The notes under the pieces are model-generated. The model did not search any database and was not told the origin of the DNA. It saw only the letters and a list, made by a program, of their open reading frames with translations. A stretch of 64,000 bases of DNA from Nocardioides marmoriginsengisoli (GTDB lineage Bacteria > Actinomycetota > Actinomycetes > Propionibacteriales > Nocardioidaceae). Location: positions 444,026 through 508,025 of the forward strand of contig NZ_RJSE01000003.1 of assembly GCF_003725695.1 (NCBI RefSeq), given 5' to 3'. Positions 3,740 to 9,372 of the stretch are shown here, piece by piece; the first letter of the stretch is position 1, and every line of letters starts with the position of its first letter. The position numbers were made by a program, and so were the translations under genes.

Positions 3740-5419
3740 TTGATCGGACTCCTCGTGCCCTACGCCGTGACCGAGCACCACGTGCTCGTGCCCCGGAGCG
3801 GACGCGGAACGCTGGCAGTCACCTTCGACGACGCCTACGTCTGGTCGTTCAGCACGCCGCGCGACGGGACCTGGACCCCGCGGGGCTGGCGGGTGCGCTG
3901 GCCCGCCGCGCTGCGCGGGCGGCTGCACGGCACCACCCGGGTCGCCCTGGTCGGCACCGACGAGGTGCACCACGAGCAGACCGTCGCGTTCGGCGATTCC
4001 GACGAGCCGCTGGCGCTGCGCGACCGGCACGGCAACCCGCTCGCGGTCGACAGCGCCGGCCACCTGACCCGGGTGTTCTCCGAGACCGGCGACGACATCC
4101 GCGCCCAAGTCGTCGAGGGCACCCGGCAGGCGCTCGCGGACCTACGCTCGCTCGGGTACGACGCGCACCTCTCCTACGGCTGCCTGCTCGGCGCCGTCCG
4201 CGACGGCCGGATGATCGGACACGACTCGGACGCCGACCTGGCCTACCTGAGCCGCGCCGACACCCCTGCCCAGGTCGTCTACGAGTCCTACGCGATGGAG
4301 CGCGAGCTGCGCCGGCTCGGCTGGCGGGTGGTCCGGATGTCGGGCGCCGACCTCAAGCTCATGCACCGGCTCGCCGACGGCCGGGTGGTGCACATCGACA
4401 TCTTCGGCGGGTTCCACGTCGGCGGCACCTACTACCAGCTCGGCGGCCGGAGCGGCCCGCTGCCGGTCTCGGCACTCAGCCCTGCGGGAATCGTCACCCT
4501 CGAAGGCGTCGAGCTGCCCGCCCCCGCGGACCCGGAGGCCGTCCTCGCCTTCCTCTACGGGCCGTCCTGGCGGACGCCGGACCCGGCCTTCCAGAACGAC
4601 GACCCTCCGGGCGGCCTGCGCCGGATCGAGGGCTGGGTGCGCGGCGTCCGGCACGACGTGGTGCCGTGGAACGAGTACTACCGAGAGCACCGCAAGCAGG
4701 TGCCGTGGCAGCCGTCGTCGTTCGCGAAGTGGACAGCGAAGCGGATCCCGCCCGGGGCGCCGATCGCCGACCTCGGCTGCGGTACCGGCCGGGACGCGTC
4801 CTGGTTCACCCGCCAGGGCCGGCTGGTCCTCGCCTACGACGCGTCCGGTACGGCGCTGCGCCAGACCCGCCGCCGGATCGTCCGGTCAGGAGGCACCGAG
4901 GACCAGGCCCGGACCCTCGCCCTCAACGACCGCCGATCCGCCCTCGCCGCCGGCGCCGAGCTGGCCCGCATCCCCGACCCGGTGCACCTCTACGCCCGCG
5001 GCCTCGTCGGCTGCCTCAACCCCGAAGCCCTCGACCACCTCTTCCTGATCGCCTCGATGGCCCTGCGCCGCGGCGGCTCGCTGCTGCTCGAGTTCAGCAC
5101 CGACTGGTCGCACCCTTCCTCTCACCCCCGCCCCGTCGCCGAACATGCAAATGTTGCTCGTGGGGCTGGAGTGAGGTCCGGCGGCCACATGCGTCACATT
5201 CGCATGTTCGAACGCGGCGTTCGCCGACCGAAGCCGACCCCGGGGCACCTCGTCGAGCGGGTCGCCGTCGACCGCGTGATCGCCGGCATCACCGCGCGCG
5301 GTGGGATCGTCGACGAGGTCACCGTCGAACGCGGCACCGACCTGTTCGACCGGCCCGACCCGAAGGTCGCCCGGATCGTCGCGCACTGGAACCACCCGAA
5401 CCAGGAGGCATCAGCATGA
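3740..5419 (+). CDS. LicD-like nucleotidyltransferase / SAM methyltransferase fusion
   Basis: A 559-residue two-domain protein. Residues about 115-290 resemble the LicD family (GCLLGAVRDGRMIGHDSDAD), which attaches phosphocholine-like groups to surface polymers. Residues about 320-540 are a class I methyltransferase with motif I IADLGCGTG. Residues 1-110 are a beta-rich N-terminal part that I do not recognise. Substrates are unknown; cell-envelope glycopolymer decoration is an inference. Residues about 467-491 are encoded by a palindromic repeat (5140-5210) inserted in frame in the methyltransferase domain. The start is uncertain: TTG at 3740 or GTG at 3755, neither with a clear ribosome site. 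The stop overlaps the next gene by ATGA. Confidence 0.75.
   Translation: MIGLLVPYAVTEHHVLVPRSGRGTLAVTFDDAYVWSFSTPRDGTWTPRGWRVRWPAALRGRLHGTTRVALVGTDEVHHEQTVAFGDSDEPLALRDRHGNPLAVDSAGHLTRVFSETGDDIRAQVVEGTRQALADLRSLGYDAHLSYGCLLGAVRDGRMIGHDSDADLAYLSRADTPAQVVYESYAMERELRRLGWRVVRMSGADLKLMHRLADGRVVHIDIFGGFHVGGTYYQLGGRSGPLPVSALSPAGIVTLEGVELPAPADPEAVLAFLYGPSWRTPDPAFQNDDPPGGLRRIEGWVRGVRHDVVPWNEYYREHRKQVPWQPSSFAKWTAKRIPPGAPIADLGCGTGRDASWFTRQGRLVLAYDASGTALRQTRRRIVRSGGTEDQARTLALNDRRSALAAGAELARIPDPVHLYARGLVGCLNPEALDHLFLIASMALRRGGSLLLEFSTDWSHPSSHPRPVAEHANVARGAGVRSGGHMRHIRMFERGVRRPKPTPGHLVERVAVDRVIAGITARGGIVDEVTVERGTDLFDRPDPKVARIVAHWNHPNQEASA
5140..5210. repeat. Palindromic repeat, copy A, inside a coding sequence
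   Basis: A 71-base element. Its ends, GAACATGCAAATGT and ACATTCGCATGTTC, form a 14-base inverted repeat with one mismatch. Compared with the reverse complement of copy B (6849-6925) it matches at 60 of 70 positions with no gaps. It lies in frame in the LicD-methyltransferase gene without breaking it. Confidence 0.85.
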
Positions 5420-5643
5420 GCCGGAAGAAGTACGGCATCCGTCGGTACCTGTCGGAGACGGTCTACCTGCCGAAGCGGATCCTCGACCTGGAGGACGCGG
5501 TGATGGAGAACCGCCAGCTCAACCGGCAGCTGGCCGAGCTGACCGACATCCTCGCCGAGCTGCTGGTCCCCGCCACCGAGCGCGACGAGAAGAAGCTCGC
5601 CGAGTTACTCGCCAAGTTCCGCGAGGAGACGCTCGCAGGCTGA
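5416..5643 (+). CDS. Small coiled-coil protein coupled to the LicD-methyltransferase
   Basis: A 75-residue basic protein. Its ATG overlaps the upstream stop (ATGA), so it is translationally coupled to the fusion gene. Residues about 20-50 (LDLEDAVMENRQLNRQLAEL onward) show a heptad-like Leu pattern consistent with a coiled coil. There is no signal peptide or membrane segment. I do not recognise the family. The tight coupling suggests a partner or scaffold for the enzyme, which is inference. Confidence 0.75.
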   Translation: MSRKKYGIRRYLSETVYLPKRILDLEDAVMENRQLNRQLAELTDILAELLVPATERDEKKLAELLAKFREETLAG

Positions 5644-5707
5644 CGTCAGGCGTCAGCAACCGAAGACCGGGGCGGCGGTGTCGACCCCGGTGGGACACCG
5701 AGCATGG

Positions 5708-6109
5708 TCAGGCGATCAGCAGCCCGACGCCCAGCGTGGCCAGGCCGACCGCCATCACTCCGGCTCCCGCGAAGACCAGCCCGATGAACCCGTTCGGCGT
5801 AGTCCGGCCAGTGCCGGCCGACGCCGCGAAGAACCCGGCCGGCATCAGGATGGCCGCGATCGGCACCCCGGAGCGCGCGATCCACGCCCATCCGCCCTCG
5901 AGACCGGACTGGTCGACGTACAGCAGGCCGAGCAGCCCCAGTACGAGCAGCACCGCGGCGTGCGCGTGCCCGGCGCGGGCGAATCCGATCTGGAACGGCG
6001 TGGCGCCGGCGGCGTCCTTCCAGAGCTTGACCAGGTACAGGCCGCCGGTCTCGACCGTGACCAGCGACAGGAAGAGGATCCCCGCGAGGATCCGGGACTC
6101 GTCGGACAT
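5708..6109 (-). CDS. Four-segment integral membrane protein
   Basis: A 133-residue protein with about four hydrophobic segments (around residues 8-27, 48-65, 80-100 and 108-132) and a central FQIGFARAGHAHAAVLLVLG stretch with a His inside the membrane region. The family is not recognised. The ATG at 6109 has AAGGAG upstream. It is divergent from a MerR regulator, and a 42-base palindrome lies in the shared promoter region, so it is very probably that regulator's target. Confidence 0.75.
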   Translation of the reverse strand: MSDESRILAGILFLSLVTVETGGLYLVKLWKDAAGATPFQIGFARAGHAHAAVLLVLGLLGLLYVDQSGLEGGWAWIARSGVPIAAILMPAGFFAASAGTGRTTPNGFIGLVFAGAGVMAVGLATLGVGLLIA

Positions 6110-6119
6110 GCGAACTCCT

Positions 6120-6168
6120 TAGATAGTTCTACTCTCCAATATTGGACAGTAGAACTATCTAATGTCAA
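6120..6168. promoter_or_regulatory. 42-base palindrome, MerR operator / divergent promoter
   Basis: 6120-6161 reads as a near-perfect palindrome: TAGATAGTTCTACT and AGTAGAACTATCTA flank TCCAATATTGGA, with only one mismatched pair. On the minus strand a consensus TTGACA (-35) lies at 6163-6168 with an AT-rich candidate -10 (AATATT or CAATAT) 18-19 bases away inside the palindrome. The long spacer is what MerR activators are known to need. Confidence 0.7.
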
Positions 6169-6177
6169 GATCATTTC

Positions 6178-6804
6178 ATGTGGATGGCGGAGCTGGCCTC
6201 GCGCTCGGGACTCAGCGTGGCAACGGTCAAGTACTACCTGCGTGAGGGCCTGCTCCCGAGCGGCACCGCGACCGGGGCAACCCGGGCGGCGTACGACGAG
6301 ACCCACGTGCGGCGGCTCCGACTCATCCGGGCCCTGACCGACGTCGCCGGCCTCCGCCTGGAATCAGTCCGGCAGGTACTCGACGGGATCGAGGCGGCCG
6401 ACTCGTGGCACGACGCGGTCGGCGCCGCGCACACCCGCCTCGGAACCGCCGAGAGCACCCCGCCCACCCCCGGATCCCTGGCGCGCGTGGACGACATGCT
6501 GGAGGCGCAGGGCTGGCAGCTCGCCCCGGGACACCCCCAGGCAGCGGCTCTCGCGCACGCCCTCGACGTGCTCGACGACGTCGGCCACCCGATCAGCGAC
6601 GAGATGCTGTTCCTCTACGCCCACGCCCTGCGCCCGATCGTGATGCGCGAGGTCGCTTCCGTCCACCTCGACGAGCGCGGCGAGCTCATCGACGCCGACG
6701 TCGAAGCAGCCGTCATCGGCACCGTCCTCCAGGAGCCCGTGCTCCTGTCGATCCGGCGTATCGCCCAGGAGAACGTGTCCCGGAAGCTGACCGAGGGCAC
6801 CTAG
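6178..6804 (+). CDS. MerR-family transcriptional regulator
   Basis: Residues 1-70 form a MerR winged helix (MAELASRSGLSVATVKYYLR...). The remaining 140 residues are helical, with no metal-binding Cys cluster, so the ligand is probably an organic molecule. The length is 208. The ATG at 6178 has no ribosome site, but CAAGAT ends 7 bases upstream, consistent with a leaderless message. It is divergent from the small membrane protein and shares the palindromic operator, suggesting control of that gene and itself. Confidence 0.9.
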   Translation: MWMAELASRSGLSVATVKYYLREGLLPSGTATGATRAAYDETHVRRLRLIRALTDVAGLRLESVRQVLDGIEAADSWHDAVGAAHTRLGTAESTPPTPGSLARVDDMLEAQGWQLAPGHPQAAALAHALDVLDDVGHPISDEMLFLYAHALRPIVMREVASVHLDERGELIDADVEAAVIGTVLQEPVLLSIRRIAQENVSRKLTEGT

Positions 6805-6848
6805 CGCTCCCCCGCCCCGTCGTTCCCGCGCCCGCCCGCGCCGCCCGT

Positions 6849-6925
6849 CCCCGAACATGCGAATGTGACGCATGGGGCGGAACGAGCGCACTCCAGCACC
6901 AGGAGCAACATTCGCATGTTCGGGG
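6849..6925. repeat. Palindromic repeat, copy B, intergenic
   Basis: The ends form a perfect 18-base inverted repeat, CCCCGAACATGCGAATGT (6849-6866) with 6908-6925, around a 41-base centre. It is the inverted-orientation relative of copy A at 5140-5210. It occupies most of the gap between the MerR gene and ogt; nothing else is visible in 6805-6978. Confidence 0.85.
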
Positions 6926-9117: not shown

Positions 9118-9190
9118 TACTCCGTACGGGATTTGAACCCGTGTTACCGCCGTGAGAGGGCGACGTCCTAGGCCACTAGACGAACGGAGC
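9118..9190 (-). tRNA. tRNA-Glu (CTC)
   Basis: A 73-base cloverleaf on the minus strand: acceptor GCTCCGT pairs with ACGGAGT (G-U at the end as in other tRNA-Glu), and the anticodon loop is CTCTCAC with anticodon CTC. The T arm is ACGGGTTCAAATCCCGT. CCA is not encoded exactly (CCCA follows). It is the substrate of the nearby GltX. Confidence 0.96.
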
Positions 9191-9300: not shown

Positions 9301-9372
9301 CTGGGATACAAGGACTCGAACCTTGACTAACTGGACCAGAACCAGTCGTGCTGCCAATTACACCATATCCCA
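9301..9372 (-). tRNA. tRNA-Gln (CTG)
   Basis: A 72-base cloverleaf on the minus strand: acceptor TGGGATA pairs with TATCCCA, the anticodon loop is TTCTGGT with anticodon CTG, and the T arm is CAAGGTTCGAGTCCTTG. The same window carries gatCAB, which in organisms lacking GlnRS converts Glu-tRNA-Gln to Gln-tRNA-Gln. Confidence 0.96.

Follow-up and report, generated by a model that had tools for sequence, protein, structure and literature searches.

Within the 64,000-nt window of the Nocardioides marmoriginsengisoli genome analysed here, two palindromic sequences of about 71 nt lie in opposite orientation, one of them inside the reading frame of an enzyme gene. This raises the question whether they belong to a family that moves between genomic sites and, if so, which protein moves it.

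A dispersed palindrome family with in-frame copies

The inverted pair originally predicted from the window is real (Table 1). The two copies are 85% identical over 75 nt, or 81% when the comparison is extended to 86 nt, and a 22-nt arm pattern occurs four times in the window against 0.03 occurrences expected from shuffles. Copy B is located between a convergent MerR-type gene and a DNA methylguanine methyltransferase gene.

Table 1. Palindrome copies in the window and the gene harbouring copy A.
Feature	Position (nt)	Strand	Description
Solo palindrome copy A	5140..5210	+	Type 1, arms ACATGCRAATGT / ACATTCGCATGT; in frame within the LicD-methyltransferase gene
Solo palindrome copy B	6849..6925 (core 6852-6922)	-	Inverted relative to copy A
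Host gene of copy A	3740..5419	+	LicD-like / methyltransferase fusion, 559 aa; reading frame open across the palindrome
Whole insert relative to LicD-methyltransferase orthologues	5102..5215	+	About 114 nt, residues D455-R492 (about 38)

The prediction of a family hinged on further copies elsewhere in the genome. Using a sequence-only profile made from 41 gapless copies (type 1), we found 14 places in the home genome (28 strand-wise matches), all carrying one gapless palindrome of about 71 nt. In all two-arm matches listed by a family-wide pattern search the arm cores were exactly 41 nt apart, with spacings of 25-55 permitted, and a control pattern gave zero matches in the same search.

Several other elements of the window were considered. 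The 14-mer CCCCCGCCCCGTCG, present near both copies, was judged probably to be a chance occurrence in GC-rich DNA. As for a known RNA family, Rfam returned two tRNAs only in the window; two neighbouring tRNA genes lie at 9118-9190 and 9301-9372, both on the minus strand. A near-perfect 22-bp inverted repeat at 6119-6162, within the divergent promoter that precedes the MerR-type gene, is probably the operator of that gene and unrelated to the palindrome family.

Copy A is in frame in its host gene, as predicted, but the added segment is larger than the approximately 25 residues (467-491) first assigned to it. The insert consists of copy A and about 37 nt upstream, and its exact borders are uncertain because the adjoining residues vary. 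Alignment showed that the segment is absent from ten same-genus LicD-methyltransferase orthologues that read through the region (those of genomes G017, G012, G019, G010, G013, G008, G015, G002, G009 and G004) and from a paralogue in G020. Orthologues free of the palindrome are thus free of the segment as well, and none of the ten carries a homologous stretch in its place.

A second in-frame copy in the same genome was found in cobF, encoding precorrin-6A synthase (G000:C4:519684), where residues 72-107 of the product span residues 72-75 of the solved CobF 2npn in the alignment. Genome G010 holds an apparent third capture. The arm is read in the same frame (ANVA) in the LicD fusion, in cobF, in the apparent G010 capture and at the C-terminus of the nuclease described below. 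The cobF copy is one of three located within 19 kb of contig C4 in what is apparently a cobalamin gene region (500990, 507425 and 519684; L380, L379 and L374), and another of these perhaps lies in the tail of a CobB-like protein. In-frame copies represent a route by which proteins may gain short internal segments.

A palindrome-flanked gene for an AbiEi-like/nuclease protein

On contig C5 of the home genome (G000), a 309-residue open reading frame between pit and pstB is flanked by two palindrome copies about 1 kb apart, the downstream one containing its stop codon. Homologues with at least 54% identity (clade A) have palindromes on both sides at every locus complete enough to see, and the pit-pstB position is common to eight genomes. 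In G012, G016 and G021 the pit-pstB site is free of the gene, with a short intergenic region. The pit-pstB region of G012 and G016 (L116, L118) harbours another long palindrome of about 64 nt with GTAGTCCGGAGC... arms, which may be a terminator or belong to another repeat type. With respect to pit, the clade-A gene of G008 (G008:C9:187426-190180; L037) has the reverse orientation to that seen in the remaining genomes, which would be in keeping with an inversion of the palindrome-bounded unit or with its independent insertion.

The encoded protein of about 300 residues has an N-terminal AbiEi-like region with a winged helix and a C-terminal Vsr-like domain in which the EDxHD-type residues are intact. 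Single partner proteins gave only weak Pfam/NCBIfam matches. In family-wide scans of 44 relatives, however, the PADLOC AbiEi profiles matched 42, MTES_1575 matched all 44 and DUF559 matched 42. An AlphaFold2 model of a protein of the nuclease family had a mean pLDDT of 92.5; its predicted residues 189-294 resemble 3hrl (Z 12.8), I-Bth0305I (3r3p, Z 12.6) and Vsr (1cw0, Z 10.6), and residues 5-185 resemble the AbiEi structure 6y8q (Z 9.3). The Foldseek/VIA comparison was used for these nuclease and AbiEi matches only. E193, D225, H243 and D252 (N. pocheonensis numbering) are invariant across the 44 relatives. Predicted fold and the conserved E, D, H and D place the C-terminal part in the EDxHD/Vsr-like nuclease superfamily, while profile and predicted fold give the N-terminal region an AbiEi-like antitoxin fold. 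The original prediction had asked after a dedicated transposase. A candidate enzyme is probably present, but it is of the AbiEi/EDxHD nuclease type and not of a known transposase class. A search of the genus for the Y1 family (PF01797) gave no match in any of 24 genomes, with 5 of 14 controls matched.

If this protein acts on the palindromes, each gene clade would be expected to have a palindrome of its own. At least three type-1 copies were found in 9 of 10 genus genomes with a clade-A gene versus 2 of 14 without one, with a p value of 4e-4 that serves as a guide only, since the genomes are related and kinship inflates the counts. The exceptions without a visible clade-A gene are G013, with about 12 copies, and G009, with three type-1 copies; in G013 the gene may have been lost in assembly, because the pit gene is at a contig end. 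A second palindrome (type 2), read from the gene flanks in G007 and G009, was located at 7 and 10 places there, respectively, whereas the 22 other genus genomes had none. The variant arm of the G010 gene flanks was found at five places in G010, one of them a gene flank, and two copies are also present in G000. We also searched the palindromes of 12 further genomes against those 12, which yielded dispersed copies matching the type of the resident gene; 28 of 42 full-length dispersed places fell on the genome's own block. In that test a Janibacter genome had paired arm matches only, counted as two dispersed copies. The places on other blocks are mostly look-alikes (L218/L230 and L191/L195), and most look-alike matches come from N. 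pini, whose genome also has an L218-type second gene enclosed by such a pair. At the level of sequence comparison, gene clade is matched by palindrome type.

Related loci are found well beyond the genus. A conserved-pattern scan gave 80 loci in Nocardioides, Marmoricola, Terrabacter, Phycicoccus, Knoellia, Janibacter, Quadrisphaera and others. For paired palindromic similarity between the flanks, 38 of 78 genes reached a score of 16, compared with 1.9% of the 743 shifted controls, and 27 genes reached a score of 18, compared with 0.1% of the controls; about half of these 78 related genes have no clear paired palindrome. In the examples read, the flanking palindromes are roughly 56-113 nt long and differ in sequence between gene clades.

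Insertion sites, recognition and possible mechanism

Joining the flanks of type-2 copies led to orthologous sites in G002 and other genomes where that palindrome is missing. At two compared sites G002 has a different palindrome at the same place. For target-site duplications, which the original prediction had proposed to look for, none was clear at the compared sites, where the flanks are disturbed and the borders of the inserts untidy. At one of the two sites with a different palindrome in G002, beside a tRNA (L263 versus L300; G009:C6:599446 and G002:C1:2826117-2826536), the palindrome of each of the two related genomes has the core of the one adjoining its genome's own nuclease gene, in G002 at the end of the gene; this site is either a hot spot or a case of replacement. 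Comparison of the genomes shows solo copies of a genome's own type to be dispersed, to occur in some species but not in related ones and, in some cases, to be captured in frame.

Among 38 solo copies, a heuristic gene call placed 31 between genes (17 convergent, 13 co-oriented and 1 divergent) and 7 'inside' genes, some of the latter being doubtful. This distribution bears on the idea that an AbiEi-like regulator binds to the palindromes, with the flanking copies autoregulating the gene, the dispersed copies forming its regulon and the protein not moving them. The promoters of AbiEi antitoxins do contain inverted repeats to which these proteins bind (PMC7319586), and the fold and profile match of the partner protein as well as the duplex-type conservation of the palindromes would suit such a role. 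However, by the same heuristic call solo copies are only once found between divergent genes, some copies lie inside coding genes, and copies are present or absent at the same sites between species, so that we consider a regulon unlikely.

The preference for convergent intergenic sites would also suit transcription terminators or structured RNA elements spread by gene conversion. This is very improbable given the copies inside genes, the tracking of nuclease clade by palindrome type and the lack of an Rfam match or of covariation in the palindrome middle. There, conserved positions are placed symmetrically, but pairing of partner bases showed no excess over halves taken from different copies (permutation p 0.90); this test covers the middle, as the arms vary too little for it. 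Symmetric conservation without a pairing excess is easier to reconcile with dyad contacts on the duplex than with a hairpin, and a hairpin or RNA function is less favoured. Type-2 palindromes are 73-75 nt (9 places) or 84-85 nt (8 places) long, about one helical turn apart. The fixed spacing, the length step of one helical turn and the missing covariation between paired positions suggest that the palindromes are recognised in duplex form.

Solo copies might also be scars, left when a palindrome-gene-palindrome unit inserts and then loses its gene by recombination between the palindromes. Solo LTRs arise by a comparable recombination between flanking repeats. Units and solos have common ends, and the distance between the two flanking copies is short enough to be in keeping with this route. 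Yet the flanking copies match at only 20-25 of 41 middle bases, which makes recombination between them unlikely, and the middles of the solos show no clear resemblance to either; descent of the solo middles from one particular gene-flanking copy was unsupported. Moreover, solo copies are numerous, whereas each clade has one gene, which sits at a conserved site. Scar formation is hence a rather remote explanation.

In size and ends the palindromes are MITE-like, and the transposase search was limited to the Y1 family, which leaves room for ordinary MITEs moved by an unrelated transposase (e.g. of the DDE type) with the nuclease gene hitch-hiking. Against this, palindrome type tracks the nuclease gene clade in many genomes, no target duplication was seen at the compared sites with their disturbed flanks, and no Y1-family match was found in the genus. 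We regard hitch-hiking as improbable to a similar degree.

From evidence that is comparative throughout, we infer that the nuclease moves the palindromes. The window copies are probably solo, non-autonomous members of the dispersed family, with the C5 AbiEi/nuclease protein as their partner. In the proposed mechanism, the AbiEi-like part, probably as a dimer, would bind the two arms on duplex DNA, and the nuclease part would cut at the palindrome or close to it, or else at target sites. As the break is repaired, the palindrome could be copied or joined into new sites without target duplication, mostly beyond the 3′ ends of genes.

Comparison with known systems

In-frame capture in protein genes is shared with the Rickettsia palindromic elements (RPE). 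The likeness, noted in the original prediction, holds for this behaviour, on which alone the two were compared. To our knowledge, no enzyme has so far been found for in-frame palindromic repeats such as RPE. CGTC repeats are likewise apparently without a dedicated transposase (PMC3733652). Unlike for both, a candidate enzyme is identified here.

The predicted catalytic fold and the invariant E, D, H and D are shared with the EDxHD/Vsr homing endonuclease I-Bth0305I, and EDxHD/Vsr homing nucleases occur fused to DNA-binding domains (PMC12350094). In contrast to homing endonucleases of this type, we found no intron or intein but a palindrome-flanked gene and solo copies at non-homologous sites. 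With the AbiEi antitoxins of type IV toxin-antitoxin systems, members of a group that binds inverted repeats (PMC7319586), the protein shares its N-terminal region by profile and predicted fold; it differs from them in the fused nuclease domain. No AbiEii partner was seen in the gene flanks read, the neighbours in G000 being pit and pstB. In the open-access papers searched (subscription papers and most preprints lie outside this range), no account linking DUF559/AbiEi proteins to dispersed palindromes was found, and the palindrome-nuclease system is apparently undescribed.

More broadly, and with about even confidence, we propose that dispersed repeats of this kind form a nuclease-driven class, related neither to RAYT/IS200 nor to known transposase classes. 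Its AbiEi/EDxHD proteins would recognise phased duplex palindromes, spread them in actinomycete genomes and thereby add short in-frame peptides to enzymes, in many clades with a palindrome each of its own. This would give a possible role to DUF559/MTES_1575, a domain annotated as of unknown function and here joined to AbiEi-like regions, and it brings the question of what spreads palindromes within reach of tests on a single protein and short DNA molecules.

The defining feature of REPIN-RAYT systems is the Y1 (HUH) transposase partner. The layout described here, with a single enzyme gene per clade that adjoins its cognate palindromes or lies between them and with short copies of the same type dispersed, is also that of REPIN/REP-RAYT (TnpA-REP; REPtron) (PMC3116915, PMC3733652). 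In both, types differ between genomes, and several gene types may coexist in one genome. The REP-RAYT logic would thus be shown by an unrelated nuclease family across Actinomycetota. Because the Y1 transposase was not found in the genus, we did not file the system under REPIN-RAYT. Instead of an IS200/IS605-like transposase the partner is an AbiEi-like region joined to an EDxHD nuclease, and instead of hairpin recognition the conservation seems to fit recognition of the duplex. If layout were given more weight, the system would count as a variant of REPIN-RAYT; we regard it as a kind of its own, since its enzyme, its repeat and the way in which the repeat is likely recognised each depart from those of REPIN-RAYT.
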